The translations under genes and the position numbers were made by a program. Below are positions 23,540 to 43,960 of a DNA stretch of 64,000 bases, one piece after another. Position 1 is the first letter of the stretch. Each line of letters opens with the position of its first letter. This DNA comes from Closterium sp. NIES-65 (taxonomy: Eukaryota; Streptophyta; Zygnematophyceae; Desmidiales; Closteriaceae): the NCBI GenBank assembly GCA_948144175.1, contig CANXME010002307.1, forward strand, positions 997,501-1,061,500. The letters are read 5' to 3'. The notes under the pieces are model-generated. The model made no database searches and was not told where the DNA came from. It saw only the letters and a list, made by a program, of their open reading frames with translations.

Positions 23540-24617
23540 TAAGGTAGCTGTCGACTCTCGACCTTCTACGGGTGCGGAGCCTGGAGGTGCTGAGCCTGGG
23601 GGTGCTGAGCTTGGGGGTACTGAGCCTGGGGGTGCTGAGCCTGGGGGTGCTGAGGCTGGGGGTGCTGAGCCTGGGGGTGCTGAGCCGCAGAGTCCGATGT
23701 CTGGGGGTTCTGAGTCTGGAGGTCCTCAGCCTGAGAGTTCTACACCTGGAGGAGCTCTCTCCTCGGAGCAGCTGCGTGAGTGGTATCTACAGTACTGCAG
23801 CCTTAGGAGAGGTAGCTCTGGAGCTAGGCGTACTCCTGGGACTGGTGCTAGTGCTTCTCCTCCTTGCCGGGAGCTCCCCTCCCGTGAGCGGATCCGTGAG
23901 TGGTACGAGCAGCGCTGCACTCTTCGGATTGGCGCGCCTGGTGTCGCGGACCCCACTGCTGCTGGTGGTGCTGCTGCTGCTGGGGACTCTACTATTTCCG
24001 CTAGTGCTGCGGCCCCAGAGGTTGCAGCTACTTCTGGTGCTGCGGACCCGAGCGTTGGAGCTACGGCTGGTGGTGAGGACCCGGACGCTGGTGCTGCGGA
24101 CCCGGGCGTTGGAGCTGCTGCTGGTATTGAGGACCCGGGAGTTGGAGCTGCTGCTGGTGCTGAGGACCCGGGCGTTGGAGCTACTGCTGGTGCTGAGGAC
24201 CCTGGTGCTGGTGCTGTTGCTGGTGCTGTGGAGTCGGGTGTTGGAGCTGCTGCTGGTGCTGAGGACCCGGGAGTTGGAGGTGCTGCTGGTGCTGAGGACC
24301 CTGGCGTTGGTGTCTCTGCTGGCTCTGGAGTCGCTACACGGCAGCGGCCGTACTTTGTTCCGCTCCTTCAGCAGGTTCTTGGTCTCCCGCCTTAAACCGG
24401 TCCTCCTCCTCCCTTAGAGTGTCCATAGCCTGTCCAGTCACAGTTACAGTTACAGCCGGCCTCCCCACTGCCTGCTCTGTCTCCCGACAGTAGTCCTACT
24501 GGAGGTCTTGGTGAGCGTCGTGAGCCTGCGTCTCGCCCTGCGTCGTCTGTCCGTGCTGCTCGCACTAGTGGTCGCGGTTCGCGTCAGCGTCCTCCTCCTG
24601 TCCTTGGCACGCACTGG
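23540..24617 (+). repeat. Integrase-RT linker of element H with 15-bp and longer minisatellites
   Basis: A 15-bp unit, CCTGGGGGTGCTGAG and variants, is repeated at about 23575-23690. In frame it codes for repeats of Glu-Pro-Gly-Gly-Ala. Two further copies of the REWY motif follow (about 23767-23790 and 23888-23910). Then comes a longer repeat coding for Ala-Gly-rich units with GAEDPGVGA (about 24050-24330). The linker is much longer than in C or G. It likely sits between integrase and RT in Pol, but its role is unknown. Confidence 0.75.
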
Positions 24618-27991: not shown

Positions 27992-28990
27992 CAGCAAGAC
28001 TCGGGATGAACAATAATGGGATTTGGAGGAGGTGTTCCGGGACTTGCAGTATAACTGACTGATTACGAAGGGCTCTATGTGCGAGTTCTTACAGTCGGAG
28101 CTGGAGTTCCTGGGGCATGTAGTTTCAAGGGAGGGCATTAAAATTGACCCTCGCAAAGTGACAGCAATTTCCCAGCGGAAGCCGCCTACGAACATCATGG
28201 AGGTGCAGAGTTTTTCGGTTTCATTGACTACGTCCGCCGTTTTGTACTGAATATGGCGGGGGTTACCAAGCCATTAACCGATCTTCTGCACAAAGGCGCA
28301 CTATTTCTATGGGGGGAGAGAGAGCAGTTGGCCTTCGACAAACTCAAGATTATTTTGAGTTCACCCCCAGTACTTTGGCTGGCAGATCAATCTTGACCGT
28401 TCGAAGTCGTGACAGACGCCAACAATTTCGCCATCGGCGCTGTCCTGCTACAGGATTTGGCAACGGGCTACAGCCAATCGCGTACGAGTCACGAAAGATG
28501 CAGCCACCCAAGCGCAACTACCCAGTACACAACAAAGAGAAGCTCGCCATTGTGCATGCATTTCGTACTTGGCGCTGTTATCTCACGGGAGCCGACGTCA
28601 CAATCAGGACAGACCACAAGTCATTACACTATATGCGCAACCAAATACAGCTCAACTCGCGACAAATCAGGTAGCTCGTCTATCTCGAATCGAATTTCCG
28701 TTACACCATCACGTAGAAGAAGGGCGCCAACAACATCGCCGATGCCCTGATCCGCCCATCAATGCAGATCGCAGCTGTACTAATCACCCATTTCAACCCG
28801 CTTTTATCAGGACTGTTCACCCACGAATACAAAACCAACCGCTTCTTCAAGAAAAATCTACACCTTCGGGTCACTACGCTGCACGTGAACTATAGCCTAA
28901 AAGTCGGTACGAACCAAGTTTGGGTCCCGTCCTACCAACCCTTATGGGAGTTGCTGACGCAGGAGGTACACGACTTGTCAAAACTCCTGC
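27992..28990 (+). pseudogene. pol: RT C-terminal part and RNase H of gypsy element I
   Basis: Landmarks in order: KCEF-type segment with ELEFLGHVVSREGIKIDPRK (about 28075-28155), YVRRF with KPLTDLLHKGALFLWGE, and the RNase H first acidic block VVTDANNFAIGAVLLQD (about 28405-28455). Then come YPVHNKEKLAIVHAFRTWRCYLTGADVTIRTDHKSL and NIADAL near 28735. The region ends in the integrase-leading segment EVHDLSKLL. This order is typical of Ty3/gypsy, not copia. Confidence 0.82.
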
Positions 28991-29097
28991 TGCTACCCTC
29001 TCCTCGCAACTAGGTCTTCTCCTTTTTCTCAGTTCTTTGCCTTCAGGCTCTTTGGCTCCTTAACTAGCTTCTCCCTCTTCCCAGCATGCCCATTCAC
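28991..29097 (-). repeat. Extra copy of element J's 3'-end sequence outside its left LTR
   Basis: About 105 bases (CTACCCTCTCCTCGCA... to CCCATTCAC) are repeated at 29495-29602 on the other side of the LTR at 29098-29472. A normal insertion gives only a 5-bp duplication, so this arrangement is irregular. Confidence 0.75.
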
Positions 29098-29472
29098 TCA
29101 AGATTTGGATCTACTGTCTCAGCGCTTAGCTAGCAGGAGGAATCAAACCCTAGCTCGGCTAACTCTACGTCCAGGCCTGGGTCTCCCTAAGGTGCTTGTG
29201 TGAAATGGCTTCATGAAGCAGGTTACCAAATTGCTAATAGGTAGATTTTAGCAAAAGTGAAAACATGCGCACAAGCATCGAGCTAGTTTACTCCCACTAG
29301 CCTAAGTACTACAACAGAGTTACCGTTGGTTGCAACGGTGCCCTTTTTCACTTCCCTAGCTTGACTTTCCCACTTTTCCACAAGTCCAAGAATTTCTCTT
29401 TCTACAGCATCTTTCGCTACTCTATTAGTCATGAAGTTATATTGTGCACACCTACTCCTACAATTAAATTCA
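29098..29472 (-). repeat. 3' LTR of element J (about 375 bp)
   Basis: It aligns with 36183-36559: shared blocks are CAAGATTTGGA, GCCTGGGTCTCCCTAAGGTG, ACCGTTGGTTGCAACGGTG and CACCTACTCCTACAATTAA. The mismatches (estimated near 10 percent) indicate considerable age. Confidence 0.85.
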
Positions 29473-29589
29473 TGATAGCCGTCGGAATTCCAAATGCTAC
29501 CCTCTCATCGCACCTCTATCTCCTCCCTTTTCTCAGTCCTTTGCCTTCAGGCTCCTCAGCTCCCTAACTAGCCTCTCCCTCTTCTTAGC

Positions 29590-30642
29590 CTACCCATTCA
29601 CTTGCCCCCTCCTCGGCTTCTGGGAGTCTTCCACTGATTGCTGATGGACTCCTCCTCTGGGCTGCTGCTCTCCCACTCGTTCTCCCTTGCTGAGTCTTGC
29701 TCTGGCCATGTTGGTGCGGTGGTCCACCTTCTCCTGCTCTTTATCGCTCACCATAACGACCACCCCTGACTCTTTCACCTCCTTTACCTTCCACATCTCC
29801 AAACTCAAGCAAATATCCATCATGTCATGTTTCACTTGTTTTAGATACACATCCTCCCCTGCCCACAGGGCCTTCTCCTTCCCCTCAGGCTCCCTTTCCC
29901 TCCTCTTCTTATACCTCTGTGCGTTCCGCAGCTGAGCCACGTGGAGGTTCTCCAAAGCTGCTGGCAGGAGCTCCCGCAAATATCTTGCCCTTGCCTCCGC
30001 CAGCCCCACCCAATCCTCCACCTTCTCTACGCTCACCGTTGCCAAGAGTATCCTGGAGGCGTCTACTGGCAGGATCGGTTCAATCCTGAGTAATGAGTAG
30101 TACGGGGACAGGTTTTTGAGTGCGGCCTGTTTGCTGAACCGGTAGCCTGCTACTACCCATGGTAGCCTCACATCCCAGTCCCGCTTAAACTGCTCTCCGT
30201 AAGCCTTCAGCCCCCTTTTAACCGTCTACACGAATCTTTCCATCAGGCCGTCACTCTGCGAGTGGTACCGCAAAGTACGCCTATGTGTAATCCATGTCTT
30301 CTACAGTAGCTTGTCAAATTCCCCCATGAACTCCGTCCCTTGATCCGTCAGAACTTCCCCACATGCCCCGAATCTCGTGAGCACGTGCTCCTCGAAGGCT
30401 TTTGCAATCCTGGCCGAATTCTTGTTCGGTAATGCCAGCACTTGTACCCATTTACTACCATGCTCGATCATGATCACAATGTACCTCTTCCTCCTCCGGC
30501 TCAATGGCATCTCTTCTGCAAAATCTAGAGACCAGCAGTTGCTGCTGTTCTTTTGTAACTGTTCTTGGTGCCAGCGATAGTGAGCTCCCCTTTCCTTGGC
30601 TCTTTCACTCACTAGTTTGGTCTCTCCGGTCTTCCCTTGCAC
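29590..30642 (-). pseudogene. pol: Integrase of gypsy element J
   Basis: The rve core has the first acidic block NCWSLDFAEEMP and YIVIMIEHGSKWVQVLALPNK, and the second block EVLTDQGTEFMGEFDKLL (about 30301-30360). The C-terminal part (ENLHVAQLRNAQRYKKRREREP, DVYLKQVKHDMMD and VVMVSDKEQEKVDHRTNM) is the basic region that in other gypsy elements precedes the end of Pol. No chromodomain is visible here, unlike in element I. The domain order RT then integrase marks Ty3/gypsy. Confidence 0.78.
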
Positions 30643-31970
30643 CTAGTCTAACACCTCTTTATCGTCCCATATATATTCCGGTCCCTTCCGAGGAGCCTTC
30701 CGCGCCCCTTCCCCATCGATCTCTCTTACCAGCGCCACCAAACAGGCAGAGGGTCTCTCAGGCGGCGGGTTCCGGGAAAGCACATCTACATGTTGCCAGA
30801 CCTTCCCCTTCGTAAGAACTGTAATTAGCCTTCGCCGGATTACAGCTGCGGCTGGCAAAGGCTACCACCTTCTCTTCTCCATTCCTATGTTGACACAGAA
30901 CTGCCCCCATGCCCAAACTGCTTTAGTTGGTATACATTGTGAATGGATCCGCTTTGTTTGGTATGGTCAGCACCGTCGCCGTTTTGACTGCCCTCAGCAA
31001 AGCCCCCAAGGCCTCCTGCTCGCAGTCTACCCATTGCCACTGCTGCTCCTCTCTCAGTAACCAGTTCAGTGGAGCCGCCGTCTTGCTGAAGTTCGGTATG
31101 AACTTCCGGTAGTAGTTGAGGAACCCCAGTACTTCTCTGAGTGTGATGTGATCCTTTGGAGGAGGAGCCCAGTCTAAAACCTCCACCTTTGCCTGTTGGA
31201 TTCCCACCGTCCCTCCCTGCACTTCAAATCCCAAGCACTTCACTGTGGTGTTCCCGAAATTACACTCCTTCGGGTGGCACGTGAGCCCCGCTTCCCTGAT
31301 AGCCTCCAAGGTGGCCTTCACGTCTTGCACGTGTTGCTCGGCGGTCGGGCTGAAGACAATGACGTTATCGATACAGCAGGCCACTACTGGAATTCCCCTC
31401 AACACCGCATAAATGGCTTGCTAGAATATGCCTGGGGCGTTCTTTGGGCCGAATGGCATGAATATCCATTCATACAGCCCATCCCAGCCATGGAACGCCG
31501 TCTTCTTCTGGTCCTGAGGTCTTATCGGATTTGGTTGAATCCCTGCCTCAAGTCCAAGGTGGATAACATGGTTGCCCCTTGCAGTTTTTCAAAATTTTCC
31601 TCAGCTGACTGCATCGGGTACCGATCAGCTACGGTAACATTGTTCAGGCCCCCGATAATCGCCACACATTCGCTTTGCCGAGACCTCCCCTGTCAGATCC
31701 TTCCTCGACGCTACCACTCTGGCCGTAGCATAGTCACTCTCTGTCCGTTGAATTAGCCCTGCAGCCATCAGCTCTGCACATTTCTCGACGCAGACGTCCT
31801 CATCCCCAGGGCTCATGCGGCACTTCTGCTGATAAATGGGCACTTTGCTTGTCAAATCGATCTTCATCTCCTGAATCGTACACCTCCTCAGCTCTTGCAG
31901 CATATACGTGAAGGTCCCTTGGTGCTGCCGTAAGATCTCTTGCATCGCCGCGGCTGCTTTGCCAGTCAAT
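30643..31970 (-). pseudogene. pol: Reverse transcriptase and RNase H of gypsy element J
   Basis: The N-terminal RT part has CTIQEMKIDLTSKVPIYQQ, CAELMAAGLIQRTESDYA and a CGDYRG block. The palm has VVACCIDNVIVFSPTAEQHV at about 31325-31390. Then follow GLTCHPKECNFGNTTVKCLGFEV, VLGFLNYYRKFIPNFSKTAAPLN and WVDCEQEALGALLRAV. The RNase H remnant ends in HVDVLSRNPPP at about 30770-30800, the usual gypsy junction to integrase. Confidence 0.8.
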
Positions 31971-32147
31971 CCCTTCCCCAGGGCCCAGTCTTCCTCTGGA
32001 CTCTTTCTTTCTTCTCCTCCTTCCCTTTCTCGGGCTTAGGCTGGTCCTGCCCTTCCCCTTTCTCTTCCCCTTCCTCCAGGGCCAGGTAGGCCCATCCCTC
32101 CACCACCCGATCTTCGTATCTCTCTTTGATCTCCTCCAACGCCCTAC

Positions 32148-32961
32148 GTGTTGGTGCAACCTACGGTTTGCACTCGTCTTGTTGTCCATGTGTGTGCATG
32201 CATGTGTGAATGGAATGGTATGAGGGCATGGGATAATATATATTTCATGCTTATAATAGTGTGTGCATGTTGAGTCATGATGCTGAGTGTGTGTGTGTCG
32301 AGTCAATAGCGAGTTATCGCTCGTCGCGTGTCACGCGGTCGTTTGTGTCCCGTGCGCGGTTTCTATTTTGCCGTGTGTCTCGTGCTCCGTTTCTATTTTG
32401 TCGTGTGTGTGGAACGTTTGGCGTGTCACAGGTGTGTGCAGCAGACCCATCAAGAACTCAAGAATGAGATTGTGGTGAAGAACCAGAGCCTTGGTGTCAA
32501 GATTCAAGTAATCGCGAAGCCCGCGAAAAGGGTACACCTCAAGATATTGAAGATAGTTACATTACTTTGTGTAGTGTAACATTTCACTTGGTGTAGGCCC
32601 TAGTGAAGGGTAGTTTCGAGACCCTTCGTGGTTGGGGACAGTGTGGCACTATTCCACATCATTGTACCTCGGCTCTTGGGGTTTGTAGGAGCTGGGAGTC
32701 ATTCCCAACTCGTAACTCTTCCTATCTTGTGTTCTAAGACTAAAGTGGCTGCCATAGTGCCGTTCGTTCAAACCAGCACTGTGTTGTCAATACTTGGTAA
32801 AATCGTGCGACCTACATTACCTATTGTAGGCGACATTAAGACGCTTCAGATCCAAGTTGAATCAGGTCGTTTGAAGCTGTGACCAGAACGCTATGAACGT
32901 TTAAAGCCGCTGTGCAAAAATCCGATTGTGCACTCTATCTTTCGTTTTAGGCACATTGAAG
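32148..32961. mobile_element. Unclassified 814-bp insertion in element J
   Basis: CCTAC at 32143-32147 and again at 32962-32966 bounds a segment unlike its surroundings: AT-richer, with GTGTGTG runs at about 32287-32300, and without the minus-strand coding pattern of J on either side. Its ends, GTGTTGGTGCAACC and GGCACATTGAAG, are not inverted repeats of each other, and it has no poly-A tail. No gene is called inside. A solo LTR or a small retroposon of unknown family is possible. Confidence 0.6.
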
Positions 32962-33049
32962 CCTACTGTGACTATAACACTGCGATGCCATTCCATCGTT
33001 TCGAATTCCCTGTTCCTCTTGCTCGCCACGATGTCCCGTTGCAACTCCT

Positions 33050-34025
33050 TCACCTTGGGATGCATGCGGATGGTCTCGATCAGCTAGGTCATCACATTCA
33101 CATCGATGGCTCACCCCTATGCTGCCCAGCGCTGGCGTTCCATCACTTCCGGATGCGCGGTAGCTTCCCAAAGATGTCCCATGGCCACCTCCCTCTCATT
33201 GGCCGTGGGCTGCTCCCACCAGCCTTTCTGCACATCATAGATCATCCCCGAGCTCGACAAGTCGCCTTCCATCACAAAACCCCTCGCGTATTCCCTGCTA
33301 CAATACCAGCATAGGTAATGCTCGCTGCAGTTTCCCTGGTTCGTAGCACTGCTACTGCGACAGATAATCAGGGCTAGTGACTGGAGCCGGCATGCGATTC
33401 AGCTCCAAAATATCACTGACCAGACGTGGTTCCGGCCTCTGCATCTGCGCCAACGAGTACCTCAGGGACGCCGTGGAGATGCCATTTTGCCAATATTGCC
33501 GCCGCCGATGCACCCTGGAGCCCAGCTGAGCTGCATCACCCAGCACCCCTCGCCCGAACACTTCAATGATCTCGTCAAAGGCTTGCTTCACTGGTTCTCG
33601 CCGGGCTTCCACCAGGTCCACATTCTCTAAGATGTAAAGCACCTCTCCTTACCGCCTCTGTATCATCTCCAGAACCCGTTTCAGATCTTGGAAGGAGGCT
33701 CCCCTGGCATCTTCCATCCCCCTTCCCTCTCCCGCTCGCGAATACCCCTGGCATTCCCACCCTGGCACAACCAGGTCTACCGGTCCCCATCTTTCCAATG
33801 TCCCCTCTGTAATTTCCCTCACATCGTGTACTCCGGCCTCCCTCTCCCTCGGAATCGGTGATTCCAGCTAATCTGGGTATGCTTCCATCAACATCAGAGC
33901 ATGGTGCTAAGCCATCTTCCGCACGGCCGGGTCTCGCTCCACATGTATCCACTTCTTGACCAAGCATCTCGCCCGTAATGTTGCTGCTAACCCTCCGTCA
34001 ACTCGACGATATAAATGGCTCGCTC
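33050..34025 (-). pseudogene. C5 cytosine-specific DNA methyltransferase-like domain in gypsy element J
   Basis: Seen on the minus strand, in the order of C5-methyltransferase motifs. A motif I-like AIYIVELTEG (about 33997-34026) and VERDPAVRKMA (about 33911-33945) form the AdoMet side. GPVDLVVPGWECQGYSRAG (about 33731-33787) holds the catalytic cysteine in the position of the family's PCQ loop (codon 33751-33753). LENVDL (about 33613-33632) corresponds to the ENV motif. DAAQLGSRVHRRRQYWQN (about 33484-33537) is the motif VIII region, NEREVAMGHLWEAT (about 33161-33203) motif IX and AIDVNVMT (about 33087-33110) motif X. The full length, about 310 residues, fits one catalytic domain. It follows the protease directly and precedes RT. 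The reading is decayed. A working enzyme of this family would transfer methyl groups to cytosine in DNA. The assignment by motif is strong; the subfamily is not resolved. Confidence 0.82.
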
Positions 34026-34640
34026 CAGAGTCGACACTCGGCTCACCCTCTCCCTTAGAGGGGGAAGCTCACCTCCCGTCACTTGTCGTTCCACTCTCCG
34101 CTCGTATTCTTCGCCATACCGCTCCAAGGACCACTCGTCCAGTTCCTCGCTTAGGTCTGTCTTCTGCACGCGATAGGCTTCCGGCGGCTCTTGTCTTACG
34201 AATTTCACGGGTAATGTCCCCACCGAGCTTTCGGGGTCCCAGTACTGTACCGGGTACAACACTTTCTTATGCCAGGTGCAGATAGTCGCCCCGACCTTAT
34301 ACAGAAGCTCCATGCCCACCAGGACGTCGTAGTCCTCCGACTCAAATACCCCATACTGCAAGCGGATGCAACATTCTTTGTCGGTTTCAGGCAACAGCAC
34401 CACCTCTATCAGTCATTTTGTGTGGGGCATCCACTTAGGCTCCCTTCCTTCTGCGGACATCAATAGGATTCCTCGCTCCACCACTTTTCCCGGCAGATCC
34501 AGCTTCAACTGCCTAGCGAGCCCTTTCCCGATCAGAACATTGTTTGCTCTGGTGTCGAGGATCGCCTACCGTATAGGCAACCCCCCCACCGTTAGGCTCC
34601 CATTTTCTGCGATAAGCACTGATGCCTAGTAGACCAACCT
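33987..34640 (-). pseudogene. pol: Aspartic protease region of gypsy element J
   Basis: The reading shows the active-site neighbourhood at about 34530-34570, then NVLIGKGLARQLKLDLPGK. A C-terminal half with YDVLVGMELLYKVGATICTWHKKVLY at about 34255-34335 matches the DVLLGMxxL landmark of gypsy retropepsins. An arginine- and glutamate-rich tail (about 34060-34160) links it to the methyltransferase-like domain without a spacer gene. Confidence 0.72.
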
Positions 34641-34935
34641 CTCGTTGGGATGCCTCTGCATATCACCGGCCACTGCACAACTTCTCTGGATAATCCTCCG
34701 GTTCTGGCCACTCGTAGCGCCATTCTCCTGCGATTGACTGTTGTGTGGTCGTAGATCAATCTCGTCTCGCCCTCTGGGTTAGGCCATCACTGCGTACTCC
34801 CGTCAGTAATCGTCCTCCCCCTCTTCCTCATCCTCTTCTTCCTCGTAGGCCATTATCGCTCTTGCCTTGCCCTCAGCCGTGGGTCGGAACTTCTCAAGCC
34901 TCAGCTGCAGTTTCTTAACCTTGGCCTGTAACTCT

Positions 34936-36127
34936 TCACGTGTTGCCCCCAGCTGCTCTCGGTTTGCTGTAGCATTCCTCCTTGCGGTGAACCCGCTTGC
35001 CGCATTGCTCGAAGCTGAGCGCCTTGGGGCAGTCCCTCAAGTGCCCCACTTCTCCACAGGTATGACAAACCCTGTCGTTGCCACGTCGATTCCTGCTGTT
35101 ATTGGCTTCTGGCACCGCTGCGGCGGCCCAACTTGTCTTAGCCCGCCCCCGTCCTTCGTTATCTTCCAAATCCAGCATCCGCTGCACGTGCTCCAACCGC
35201 TTGGCTATCCCGTACACTTCCTTCAACGTGATATCGGCGCTGATGCCGTACACTGTAGTTCGCACGACATTCCGCAGCTCATTTTTGAGACCTCTCACGA
35301 ACTTCCGCACCAGCAGCCGTTCATCCTTGTTCTCGAGGTCTTCAGCCAGCTCCCGAAGTCGGCAATAATATGCAAGGATTGGCTCATCTTTCTTCCGTCG
35401 GAAATCCTGGAATTCCTCCACTCGCGCCTTACTCTGTCCCACAAATTCTTTCCGCAACATTTGAAGGAACCTGGCCGTACGGTTATCGATCTCCCCACAC
35501 GCTTGTTCTTCTAGGATCTCGTCCCGCACCATTCGAAAGTAGGTTTCAGCTTCCCACGCGAGGGTCCCCAACATCTTCTGGAAGAATTCACAGGGGTCGT
35601 ACCCGTCCCGCTCCCAACAGTACTGCAACATCTCTAGTTGCATAAGGTAATTTTTCAAGCTCGGACCCACTCCTTGGATGCCGGTGTACCTTTCCGCCAC
35701 TTCCACTTTCGGCAAATTCACCGACTTCCAGTGGGTCCTGGTAGTTGACGCGTCCCCGGTTCTGTTCTTCGAGTGTGCCGCAACGCCGCTCGCTACTAGC
35801 TCCCTTCTCATAAAGGTCTCTGCTCCTCCGACCTTCTCCCCTTGTCAGTCCATTCTTGGCATGGCTGTCCGCGACGTTCGTTCTTCTTGTCTCTGCCAAC
35901 ATGCCCGTGCTTCCGTCGCCCACCTCGTATCCGATAACCCCTCGCCTAGATCCGACGCGACATAACGATCCCGTTCCATAGTTCTCTCTGCTGCTCGGGC
36001 TCATTGTTGTGGGGTGTGGTACGCCGGTGACGCCGGAGTCGGCGGTCTCGTATCCACCCTTTGTTCCGTGTGAACCGTGTGCGTGCACGAGCTCGGCGCT
36101 GCTCTTGTTACTCCCGTCTTGTCCCAC
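34936..36127 (-). pseudogene. gag: Gag of gypsy element J
   Basis: Retrotrans_gag features: FFQKMLGTLAWEAETYFRM, RFLQMLRKEFVGQSKARVEEFQDFRR, ILAYYCRLRELAEDLENKDE and VRKFVRGLKNELRNVV. A nucleocapsid with knuckle CHTCGEVGHLRDC (about 35035-35075) and a second, less regular cysteine cluster follow. The 5' LTR is about 60 bases upstream in element sense. Confidence 0.78.
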
Positions 36128-36182
36128 AAGCGTGTCCGCAATTGCTCTCTACTATTCATCGGCGGTAACTTGCTTGTGCGTT

Positions 36183-36559
36183 TGTCAAGATTTGGAGATA
36201 CTGTCCCAGCGCTCAGCCAGCAAGAGGAATTAAACCCTAGCGCGGCTGAATCTACGTCCAAGCCTGGGTCTCCCTAAGGTGCTTGTGTAAAATGGCTTCA
36301 CAAAGCAGGTTACCAAATTGCGAATAGGTAGAGTTTAGCAAAACTGAAAACAAACACACAAGCACCGAGCTAGTTCACTCCCACCAGCCTAAGTACTACA
36401 CCAGGGTCACCGTTGGTTGCAACGGTGTTTTTTTTCGCTTCCCTTGCTTGACTTTCCCACTTTCCCACGAGTCCAACATTTCCTCTTTCAACAGCATCTT
36501 TCGCTACTCTTTTAGTAGTGAAGTGATATTGTGTACACCTACTCCTACAATTAACTTCA
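36183..36559 (-). repeat. 5' LTR of element J (about 377 bp)
   Basis: Plus-strand limits are TGTCAAGATTTGG and CAATTAACTTCA, pairing with 29098-29472. Element I sequence resumes right after it at 36560. Confidence 0.83.
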
Positions 36560-37839
36560 TGACGGACTCCAACCTCTCTAGGTATTTCGGCACCGACAAA
36601 ACACTAAAGCTGCTGTAGCGGCATTATTATTGGCCCGACATGTGTCGGACATGCAGCGCGTTACGTGACAGCTTGCTCAATCTGCCAAGTTATGAAGTCG
36701 TCGCAACAACGCCCAGCTGGATTGCTGCAGTCCCTCGAGCCACCCGAATGACCGTGGCAACAAGTGACGATGGATTTTTTCATAGGGCTGCCCGCTAATG
36801 CAAATGACAACGACTCGGTGCGAGTCGTCGTTGACCGCCTAACAAAAATGACGCATTTCGCACCATGCCGCATGACGATCACAACCAAAGAAACTTTGTA
36901 GCTATTCATCTCGACCGTTGTACGAACGGGTTACCTTCGGCGATCATCAGTGATCAAGATCGGATATTCACGTCAAATTTCTGGCAAGAGATGTGGGCAC
37001 AATATGGCACCCGCCACAGTTTTTGTCATCATACCACCCGCAAACCGACGGTCAGACAGAGCAAAGAAATCAGACAATGGAGAAGTTGATTCGCACGAAT
37101 TGCCCCCACTTGACCAAGTGGGAGGACTTGCTCCCAATGCTGGAGTTTGCAAATAACAACGTACGCTCTGCGACGACCAATCGGTCACCATTTTAATTCA
37201 ATTACGGGATAGACCCCGTGGTACCCTCTTCAACGGCCCCCGACAACCCGGTACCACGATCCTAACAGTTTGTATCAGAACTTCAAGCATCCCGCGACAA
37301 AGTAGCCTAATTCGTTCGAAAGGCTAACACTTTCGCCAGCCGCTACGTTGACAGGCATCGAAGGAATTTACATTTCCACGACGGGAAAATGGTCCTTTTG
37401 GACACGAAAGTTTTCGGATTGCCCCAGCCCACAAAATTGCGTCCCTGCTACATGGGACCCTTCCGCATCATCAAGATGATGACACCTATCACGGGAAATT
37501 CCTTCTACCGGATGACTAAAAGGTTCACGACACTTTCCGCATCAGTCTGCTCTGCCATTACGTGACTCCGCAGTTGTCCGATATCGCCCGCCCCAGCCCT
37601 GCGTCAAGTGTCCAACCTGTGGCAGAACCGACACTGCAACTTGTGAAAATTCTAGCTCATCGCATTCGTGCGACACCCGCAGGACGCCAAGTGGATTTCC
37701 TACTCCGTTGGGTGGATCGCACAAGCGAAGATGACACGTTGGTCCCAGCTAACTCACTACAAGGCCACTCAGTCTTATGGGATTTCCTTTCACGCCGACG
37801 CATGCCTGATATCGATCACCTTTCTTAAAGGGGGGGTTG
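36560..37839 (+). pseudogene. pol: Integrase, chromodomain and polypurine tract of gypsy element I
   Basis: The integrase zinc-binding segment has FGTDKTLKLLQ and HYYWPDM (about 36587-36645). The core begins at DFFIGLPANANDNDSVRVVVDRLTKMTHF (about 36774-36860). The tail holds PANRRSDRAK-type and PMLEFANNNV segments, then a region leading to a chromodomain-like block, ILAHRIRATPAGRQVDFLLRW and VDRTSEDDTLVPANSLQGH (about 37645-37770). In chromoviruses this block reads histone marks and steers integration. The polypurine tract AAAGGGGGGG lies at 37827-37836. Heavily decayed. Confidence 0.78.
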
Positions 37840-42529: not shown

Positions 42530-43960
42530 CTCTAGGTCCTCCCCAGGTAGACCCCTTCCCTATTCCCGGTCCTGCTCCTTCAGGTGTGTCTCAGGTAGAC
42601 CCTCCTCCCTTGCTTGAGCCGGTTGAGGTCAGTGGTGACTCAGGTCCTGTTGGGGGAGGTTCTGCTCGGGGTGCTGCTTTTGGGGGTGCTGAGCCTGGGG
42701 GTGCGGAGCCTGGGGGTGCTGAGCCTTGGGGGTGCAGAGTTTGGGGGTGCTGAGCCTAGGGGTACTAAGTCTGGGGGTGCTGCACCTAGGGGCGCTGAGG
42801 CGTCTAGTGAGCAGTCTCCCTGGAGCGGTCGTCTCTGTAGTCACTCCGCTAGTGCCTCGCCGTAGCACTCTCGTCGGCGTCTCCCTCTATCCCCACAACA
42901 GCTACGTGAGTGGTACGTCAGCTGTCAGGGTCGCGCTGGTGGAGCTGGAGGCTCTGCTGCGGGAGGCGCTGGGGTTGGAGGCACTGGAGATGGCACTGTC
43001 CCTCTCTCCCCACAGCAGCTGTGTGAGTGGTATGTTCGTTGTCAGGGTCGCGCTGCTCGAGCTGGGGGCCCTACTCCGGGAGGCGCTGGAGCTGGTGACT
43101 CTACTACTGGAGGTGTTTCTACCGGAGTTCCTAGAGCCGCTGGTCCCAGAGGTGCTCGTACTGGAGGTACTTGAGCTTCTGGGGCTGGAGGTACTGCTGG
43201 ACCTGGAGGTGCTGCTGTCGACTCTGAGGTAGGAGGCCCTATAGTTGGGGGTGCCGGTTCTGGGGGTGCTGCTGCTGATGGCGCTGGTCCTGGAGGTGCT
43301 GGTGCTAGAGCATCTAGAGCTGTTGGAGGTGTTGGCGCTGAAGATTCTGGAGCTGTTGAAGGTGCTGGTACTATAGGTGCTGGCGCTGAAGGCTCTGGAG
43401 CTGCTCGAGGTGCTGGCGCTGGAGTTTCTGGAGCTGGTGGAAGTGCAGGCGCCGGAGGAACTGGCAGTGGCGGTTCTGGAGCCGCTGGTGGTGCTGGTAC
43501 TGGAGGTGCTGGCGCCGGAGGTTCTGGAGCTGCTAGAGGTTCTGGAGCTGGTGGAGGTGCTGGCGCTGGAGGCGCTGGTGCTAGAGGTTCTAGAGCTGCT
43601 GGAGGTGCTAAAGCTACTGGTGCTGGTGGCACTGCACAGCCGCGACTGTTCTTCGCTCTGTCGTCGCCTTCGTCTCTGCCACCACCTGACACTGTGCTTC
43701 GTCGAGTTCTTAGTCTCCCATCTTCTATTGGTCTTCCGTTACAGCCTCGCTCACCGCTGCCTGCTCCTTCTCCTTACACTGAGCAGACAGGAGGTCTTAC
43801 TGAGCGTCGTGCGCCTGCGTCTCGTCCTGTCTCGCCTGTTCGCGCTGTCCGCACTGGTCCTACTGGTCGTCATGTTCCTCGTGAGCGTCCGCCGGCTATC
43901 CCCGGCACACACCTCATGGCCCTGCGTCCTTCCTCTGCTCCGCAGCGTGTTCCCCTGCCA
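42530..43960 (+). repeat. Integrase-RT linker of element L with minisatellites
   Basis: The 15-bp unit GGGGGTGCTGAGCCT is repeated at about 42665-42800. REWY modules follow at about 42895-42915 and 43015-43035. Then comes a long GGAGGTGCTGG(C/T)GCT-type repeat (about 43100-43640). The frames kept open on both strands come from repeat composition. Confidence 0.7.

Follow-up and report, generated by a model that had tools for sequence, protein, structure and literature searches.

In Closterium, a large family of Ty3/gypsy retrotransposons encodes a polyprotein composed of gag, zinc knuckle, protease (PR), a DNMT3-like methyltransferase (MT), reverse transcriptase (RT), RNase H and DDE integrase (IN), and element J, found on the minus strand of the window (the whole 64,000-nucleotide stretch of DNA that was analysed), is a dead copy of it. 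That the J domain is a C5 methyltransferase placed between protease and RT can be regarded as practically certain, and we are highly confident that the family has long had the MT, under selection, and did not receive it by a late insertion. The ends of the relatives suggest that the family is likely to insert from circular cDNA, the DDE integrase cutting a palindrome within the long terminal repeat (LTR), and the full explanation, the circle cycle included, seems to us quite probable.

The methyltransferase domain of element J

Element J is composed of the following parts, listed from its 5′ side:

36565..36568, minus strand: target-site duplication AGTC, 5′ side
28976..36564, minus strand: element J, whole proviral unit A1-gag-PR-MT-RT-RNaseH-IN-B1-GC-A2-B2 (repeat pairs, comparison with intact relatives, 4-bp duplication)
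36186..36564, minus strand: repeat A1, 88.6% identical to A2 over 378 bp
34939..35844, minus strand: gag remnant with zinc knuckle, open for 302 aa (matches fetched relatives)
34275..34620 (about), minus strand: aspartic protease remnant, DTRA for DTGA (matches relatives at 46-71%; Pfam protease match at the same place in intact L009)
33047..34007 (about), minus strand: DNMT3-like C5-cytosine MT domain, broken (PF00145, homologues, PDB DNMT3A, shuffle control, stops)
33730..33762, minus strand: catalytic loop GWECQGYSRAG (motif IV with its Cys; 13/13 aligned relatives have the same Cys and Gln)
32160..32975 (about), minus strand: stretch of ~0.8 kb between MT and RT, taken as a secondary insertion (gap against L025 and L027)
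30926..31928 (about), minus strand: reverse transcriptase remnant (PF00078 partial, 23.2 bits, below the cut-off of 29.6; 72% alignment to L025)
29705..30534 (about), minus strand: DDE integrase remnant (PF00665, E=2.2e-7, 31.5 bits against a cut-off of 32.6; alignment to L027)
29603..29611, minus strand: probable polypurine tract (PPT) GAGGGGGCA, directly before B1 (motif shared with relatives)
29480..29602, minus strand: repeat B1 (self-comparison; end set by comparison with relatives)
29473..29484, minus strand: decayed palindrome at B1-GC-A2, CGACG-GC-TATCA (core GACAGCTGTC in relatives)
29099..29477, minus strand: repeat A2 (self-comparison)
28976..29098, minus strand: repeat B2, 84% identical to B1 over 108 bp (A2/B2 joint blunt by eye)
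28972..28975, minus strand: target-site duplication AGTC, 3′ side

The pairs given by self-comparison are 36185-36562 with 29098-29475 for A and 29495-29602 with 28991-29098 for B. J starts with CGTCATG, where the relatives have TGTC, and the copy is an old one, because its A1 and A2 are separated by a K2P distance of 0.13. The gag piece gave no match in the Pfam scan. Between protease and MT there is a linker (~34010-34275) that is common to the relatives, and the ~0.8 kb stretch on the other side of the MT is taken as a later insertion, foreign to the original element, since it is absent from L025 and L027; with the linker before it and the insertion after it, the MT does not occupy the entire protease-RT gap, contrary to what had been supposed. 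Two 30-bp tandem copies are located inside that stretch (32344-32403), and tandem arrays are also present elsewhere in the window, at 24002-24352 and 42638-43636, with spacings of 33 and 15 bases.

All six C5-MT landmarks named in the original prediction are present in the minus-strand translation of J. VELTEG, a remnant of motif I LELYGGIGTGLAA, lies in the open frame 34412-33990; VERDPAVRKMA, GWECQGYSRAG, LENVDL and DAAQLGSRVHRRRQYWQN lie in the frame of 33984-33359, and NEREVAMG and AIDVNV in that of 33290-33047. Motifs IV, VI, VIII and part of X are kept, and motif I is frameshifted. The J copy is dead, a fossil as the prediction had called it, because its MT contains two frame changes, one at motif I and one near 33290, and at least six stops, three in 33984-33359 and three in 33290-33047.

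A PF00145 search had been named in advance as a test that could refute the methyltransferase identity, and it returned a significant match: the central frame of J (33984-33241, with X at stops) scored 29.5 bits (E=6.6e-7; cut-off 22), and neither the N-terminal nor the C-terminal piece was matched by PF00145 in the same scan. A profile built from the MT of 13 relatives, without J, reached 289 bits in one real frame and 81 in another, and the top score among 1200 frames of 200 shuffled versions of the J segment (shuffled in two-base blocks) was 8.2 bits, which rules out a chance match. Relative L045 was aligned to J by tblastn with E=3e-146, protease and MT combined, in different frames. The domain was thereby confirmed where it had been placed, at 33050-34025, but its limits had to be corrected to about 33047-34007. 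The predicted algal host agrees with the MT homologues of J, since all 11 found at E<=1e-3 are Closterium proteins (NIES-53, NIES-54 and Naga37s-1), 46-75% identical, which points to a host that is Closterium or closely related to it.

The family in the Closterium genome

The assembly searched comprises 874 Mb in 2400 contigs, and the PF00145 profile gave there at least 123 scored matches, of 901 candidates. Twenty loci, picked from the 123 for long frames and variety, were fetched; gag, PR, MT, RT and IN follow each other in that order in 16 of them, and in five (L009-L013) one uninterrupted frame of 2134-2321 aa runs from gag to integrase. In the L009 frame Pfam recognises zinc knuckle, aspartic protease (828-923), DNA_methylase (1060-1115), RVT_1 (RT at 1455-1605), RNase H, Integrase_H2C2 and rve, and the intact relatives L009, L011 and L020 score 29.5-31.2 bits against PF00145. 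The element is assigned to Ty3/gypsy by its protease followed by RT-RNaseH-integrase with H2C2 and rve domains; its ends are not a pair of plain direct LTRs, the 5′ end holding A only. The prediction that a Ty3/gypsy element bears the MT between protease and RT was upheld in J, and the relatives have the same order. As for the exceptions, L017 is without a gag match, L025 without gag and protease matches, and L026 is without integrase and part of RT; L028 is a PPCQ exon with no element match, which looks like an exon of a host methyltransferase gene. Locus L021 (G000:C995) is a tandem array with a period of 7064 bp and three PF00145 matches, in which 2837 bp are repeated at 100% identity, and contig C382 holds two PF00145 matches 7088 bp apart.

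A sample independent of the MT was obtained with the RT piece of J as query. At least 150 matches, of 8542 candidates, were scored (59-76% identical, J itself aside), 20 loci were taken across the ranking of the 150, and 1.5 kb upstream of RT was read. A search for related copies without the MT was the other refutation test named in the prediction, and the MT was found upstream of RT in 17 of the 20, a protease match preceding it within the fetched piece in 15 of these 17 (not in L052 and L062). Among the 17, the fetched piece ends inside the MT in two, and for L044 and L045 the best single match is partial. L056 has the C-terminal part of the MT only. L058 has an in-frame MT deletion that starts just before the catalytic Cys, and a frame of 1212 aa is still open, as was read in L063 (G000:C1144:533500-542000), where the MT remnant is fused in frame to the RT side; loss of the MT may be tolerated, since this frame is kept without the catalytic half of the enzyme. 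L059 has neither protease nor MT, the catalytic loop of L060 was not found, and L064, with no gag, PR or MT match, looks rearranged and not ancestral.

Ka/Ks was calculated by the Nei-Gojobori method for 11 pairs, in five of which the MT Ks is saturated, with one more at 3.2. The selection argument is carried by two pairs, L012/L018 (MT Ka/Ks 0.08 at Ks 0.147, RT 0.11) and L014/L019 (MT 0.09 at Ks 0.191, RT 0.10), because the others are too distant, too close or less clear: too little divergence separates L012 from L015 and L014 from L017 (MT and RT of L014/L017 both give 0.63), and L013/L023 shows an MT Ka/Ks of 0.21 at Ks 0.051 and an RT value of 0.07. Distances in the MT and RT trees agree (Mantel r=0.906 for 15 elements, 0.928 for the 10 from this genome, p=0.0001 each), in samples that contain close copies and are hence non-independent; L009, L014/L019 and L077 are placed differently by the two trees, with weak support in the MT tree. 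The sampling by RT only, the Ka/Ks values and this agreement are the reasons why we regard the MT as old and selected. The notion that a host or viral methyltransferase gene entered one old gypsy copy, by chance or as a secondary insertion, for which one could point to at least one secondary insertion beside the MT of J, can be practically dismissed in view of the 17 RT-picked relatives, the five copies with MT in one open frame with gag and pol and the matching distances, the RT-only sampling being in our view its refutation.

Class and possible task of the enzyme

Across 13 divergent members no change is seen in the catalytic Cys or the Gln that follows, in the Glu of ENV, in the His-Arg-x-Arg (motif VIII) or in the motif X residues Gly and Asp, and in these relatives motifs I, IV (Cys), VI (ENV), VIII (RxR) and X, as we take these MT columns to be numbered, stand in the order of C5 methyltransferases. 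The solved enzymes closest to the MT profile are DNMT3A chains (8te1_A, E=2.1e-24), then DNMT3B, with further matches to 4onj (1.1e-13; a 'DNA methyltransferase' that is presumably a DRM), HhaI (8.2e-11) and DRM2 (1.3e-9). The assignment to the DNMT3 class is thus made among solved enzymes and by the unrearranged motif order, motifs I to X of the catalytic domain of DNMT3A and DNMT3B following each other as in the family MT. Plant DRM is described in PMC5890265 as having a rearranged motif order, unlike the family MT. Unlike DNMT3A and DNMT3B, the polyproteins scanned gave no PWWP or ADD match.

In classical C5 methyltransferases the catalytic loop reads SPCN or PPCQ, with Pro preceding the catalytic Cys. 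This is the loop of DNMT3A and DNMT3B, whereas many members of the family have GWECQ. Among the 59 proteins with a readable catalytic motif, of 92 examined, the residue before the Cys is Glu in 43 (WEC), Pro in 15 (14 WPC, 1 PPC) and Ser in one, and Glu in place of Pro beside the catalytic Cys could weaken catalysis. The MT domain of intact L012 was modelled by AlphaFold with a mean pLDDT of 90.9 and a pTM of 0.91.

By analogy with the proposal made in the discussion of such elements in PMC5890265, that their cDNA may be methylated, the MT might methylate the new cDNA or the circle before insertion, a serious possibility that falls a little short of an even chance. Invariant catalytic residues over 13 members are expected if catalysis matters. 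The ratio of observed to expected CpG is alike in J (0.75), in the window (0.72) and in 13 relatives (0.70-0.82), so that by this ratio neither J nor the 13 relatives show special CpG decay or any sign of self-methylation. It is also possible, though we lean against it, that the MT is kept for another task and serves to silence or open up the target site, to methylate RNA, or as a structural or DNA-binding domain. The Klebsormidium domain expressed in yeast showed no methylation, a result that the authors themselves call inconclusive in their account of it (PMC5890265), and this would suit another task, as would the Glu next to the catalytic Cys in most of the proteins and the PHD finger of two relatives (P0020 and P0021), which could read chromatin; against it stands the lack of any change, across the 13 divergent members, at the catalytic Cys, at the Glu of ENV, at the RxR and at the motif X residues.

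Proviral ends and the proposed circle model

A plain LTR element was rejected when self-comparison of J revealed split repeats. Intact relatives start with TGTC (A1) and end with GACA (B2), and the arrangement A1-ORF-B1-GC-A2-B2 was found in eight fetched loci and read from end pieces in three more. A stretch beginning with ACAA, which is probably the primer side, follows A1 directly or after at most 10 bases (ACATACAA in L014), and GAGGGGGCA, probably the PPT, precedes B1 in 14 of the 14 relatives printed. The B1/A2 junction GACA-GC-TGTC (GACAGCTGTC) is exact in 15 of the 16 copies read, J aside, L018 having one substitution. Exact 4-bp duplications accompany the TGTC...GACA ends in 15 of 16 copies (11/11 with split repeats, 4/5 of the form A-ORF-B), and J agrees with the family in its AGTC duplication; when the right end was shifted as a control, duplications appeared in 2 of 384. 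The repeat-free A-ORF-B form accounts for 5 of the 20 fetched loci (L010, L012, L013, L019, L022).

The A2/B2 joint is variable. It is blunt in L015, L033, L017 and J, longer by one base in L009, L018, L024 and L029, by two in L016 and by eight in L023, the single and double additions seen being +A, +T and +AA; in L011 and L020 10 nt of A are lost and extra bases are gained (in L020 GGGGCA, which is PPT sequence), and in L031 8 nt are lost at a 7-nt microhomology. These counts of gained and lost bases depend on the placement of the primer side, which was set by position and the shared ACAA. The joints of L017, L024 and J were read by eye, and the A1 end was taken from L015 for L029, L031 and L033 and from L014 for L017. 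Since L015, L029, L031 and L033 form one subfamily, 97-100% identical in A and B, the joint differs among close copies, and their B1/A2 and PPT/B1 joints are the same.

The following cycle would produce such copies. Reverse transcription, bounded by the probable primer side behind A and by the PPT in front of B, would yield a linear cDNA, B-GC-A ... B-GC-A, with B-GC-A as its LTR. Joining of the cDNA ends would give a circle and, with it, the variable A/B joint; the DDE integrase would then cut the palindrome GACA-GC-TGTC within the LTR, the GC being dropped, and the opened circle would be inserted with 4-bp duplications. A two-LTR circle cut at the other palindrome would become A-ORF-B-GC-A-B, and a one-LTR circle A-ORF-B, although recombination between B1 and B2 after insertion could be another source of A-ORF-B copies. 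The 7064-bp tandem units of C995 fit an origin from circles or from recombination. Against the circle model speak L010, which has no target duplication, and L014, which ends at A2 without B2, no duplication being seen by eye.

The variable A2/B2 joint could instead reflect slips of RT at strand transfer, the provirus arising from linear cDNA that already carries B2. Extra A/T and PPT residues could indeed appear at priming or strand transfer, but the normal gypsy scheme yields no B after A2, and the microhomology deletion of L031 and the eight added bases of L023 look like end joining, so that this explanation is unlikely. It is quite improbable that A-ORF-B-A-B is the product of a DIRS/PAT-type cycle, with recombination rather than the integrase bringing a circle into the genome. 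The repeat order is that of the split direct repeats of DIRS elements, and the description of the Klebsormidium element in PMC5890265 says the same of its repeats; yet Integrase_H2C2 and rve occur in the three frames of this genome that were scanned, and 15 of 16 copies combine TG...CA ends with an exact 4-bp duplication, the kind that DDE integrases make. Tyrosine-recombinase elements are not known to leave a target duplication. Split direct repeats are thus the one DIRS/PAT character found, absence of duplication and a tyrosine recombinase being the ones that were not, and a tyrosine-recombinase DIRS element was rejected, the frames scanned having an rve integrase and no tyrosine recombinase.

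Circular cDNA as an integration substrate has been proposed but disputed for retroviruses. Extending the circle model, we lean towards a whole green-algal Ty3/gypsy lineage with a rotated LTR, in which insertion would require circular cDNA, the provirus would be a two-LTR circle opened away from its joint, and the MT would act on the circle. If this rotated-LTR reading is true, here is a DDE-integrase retroelement with the circle as its normal substrate. If the circle model is true, the formation of circles and the cutting of the palindrome by a DDE integrase can be read base by base from young insertions, and the old question of circular cDNA as integration substrate becomes directly testable in an alga.

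Relation to known elements

The MT-bearing gypsy element is an already known kind. Precedents for the capture of such enzymes in dinoflagellates and a charophyte alga, named in the original prediction, are real, namely Symbiodinium and Klebsormidium elements described in PMC5890265 (2018). KnitGypsy-Dnmt3 of Klebsormidium nitens is described there as a Gypsy element with Dnmt3 domains in Pol, domain Ka/Ks < 0.2 and repeats 'the same as that of a DIRS retrotransposon'. By this published description it resembles the Closterium family in its charophyte host, its DNMT3-related domain in Gypsy Pol, purifying selection and DIRS-like repeats, and belongs to the same kind. It differs in that the published text on it gives no target duplication, palindrome, circle model or domain order; the main text of PMC5890265 contains no words starting with circular, palindrom or split, and its one passage on target-site duplications concerns LINEs. 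SymbioDIRS-Dnmt3 and SymbioLINE-Dnmt are likewise retrotransposons with captured C5 methyltransferases, and the former has A-coding-B-A-B repeats as in Closterium, but, as described, they possess a tyrosine recombinase or an endonuclease in place of the DDE integrase and have a dinoflagellate host; their authors regard the Symbiodinium acquisitions of MT as separate (PMC5890265).

The integrase of prototype foamy virus is reported to cut the palindrome at LTR-LTR joints of circles (PMC1180852), which is like the family model in that a DDE integrase would cut a palindrome in circular cDNA before insertion. The foamy virus palindrome is the LTR-LTR joint itself, as reported there, whereas that of the Closterium family lies inside the LTR, the joint being elsewhere and the provirus a rotated unit. 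Cutting of a palindrome by HIV-1 integrase is the subject of PMC1905944. DNMT3 members in retrotransposons of streptophytes and dinoflagellates, with the LTR ones called Copia, are mentioned in PMC12344493, and PMC9998398 cites the 2018 paper, its pertinent passages adding nothing further on MT-bearing elements.

The open-licence PubMed Central literature yielded no account of Closterium gypsy elements with an MT, of insertion of gypsy elements from circles cut at a palindrome, or of the second architecture described below (RT-RNaseH-MT-IN-PHD). What is new is therefore the wider spread, this second architecture, and the A-ORF-B-GC-A-B proviruses with TGTC...GACA ends, 4-bp duplications, the B-GC-A palindrome and a variable A/B joint. 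The literature found describes MT capture by gypsy in one charophyte genome, and here it is met in another charophyte lineage, in a large family with full-length open copies, which allows the part played by such enzymes in a transposon to be studied on many copies.

Relatives beyond this genome

The search with the MT region of L009 gave 14 proteins, eight from Closterium and six from ENA/JGI, the latter probably from metagenomes. In P0018, P0019 and P0022 the MT follows the protease, and in P0018 and P0019 it also precedes RT; P0020 and P0021 have the second architecture, RT-RNaseH-MT-IN, ending in a C-terminal PHD finger that was present in these two only. An alignment-based MT search gave 76 proteins, a few among the weakest being bacterial methylases, and none of the 11, 14 and 76 matches of the three MT searches is a named Klebsormidium protein. 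One of the proteins, P0041, is labelled Chrzof1, which we read as Chromochloris, a chlorophyte; P0020, P0021, P0033, P0041 and P0056 form one clade of the MT tree (0.998), and P0020 and P0021 one clade of the RT tree (0.999). Related forms occur in the Chrzof1-labelled protein and in ENA/JGI sources, with the enzyme at two places of Pol.

The search of viral contigs turned up 12 weak matches, short segments of 27-55% identity, and that of genome contigs six weak matches to Streptomyces or Saccharothrix and one real relative, L077. The latter is a eukaryote-like retroelement whose contig, CADCWO010000201.1, is assigned to a cyanobacterial MAG, and P0034 bears the label of an Obscuribacterales (bacterial) MAG; both placements look like contamination. 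L077 is distant (MT 42%, RT 45%), and the 9182 bases fetched from its contig have the same 24-base sequence at both ends. In L077 a GGGGGGGCA is followed about 100 bp later by GACAGCTGTC, past the end of the pol frame, a position that would be between the end of pol and the gag side if the contig closes into a circle; ten 10-base palindromes are present in the locus, and just one of them has the GACAGCTGTC sequence. Since so distant a relative carries GACAGCTGTC after its pol frame, the end layout of the family seems to be old.
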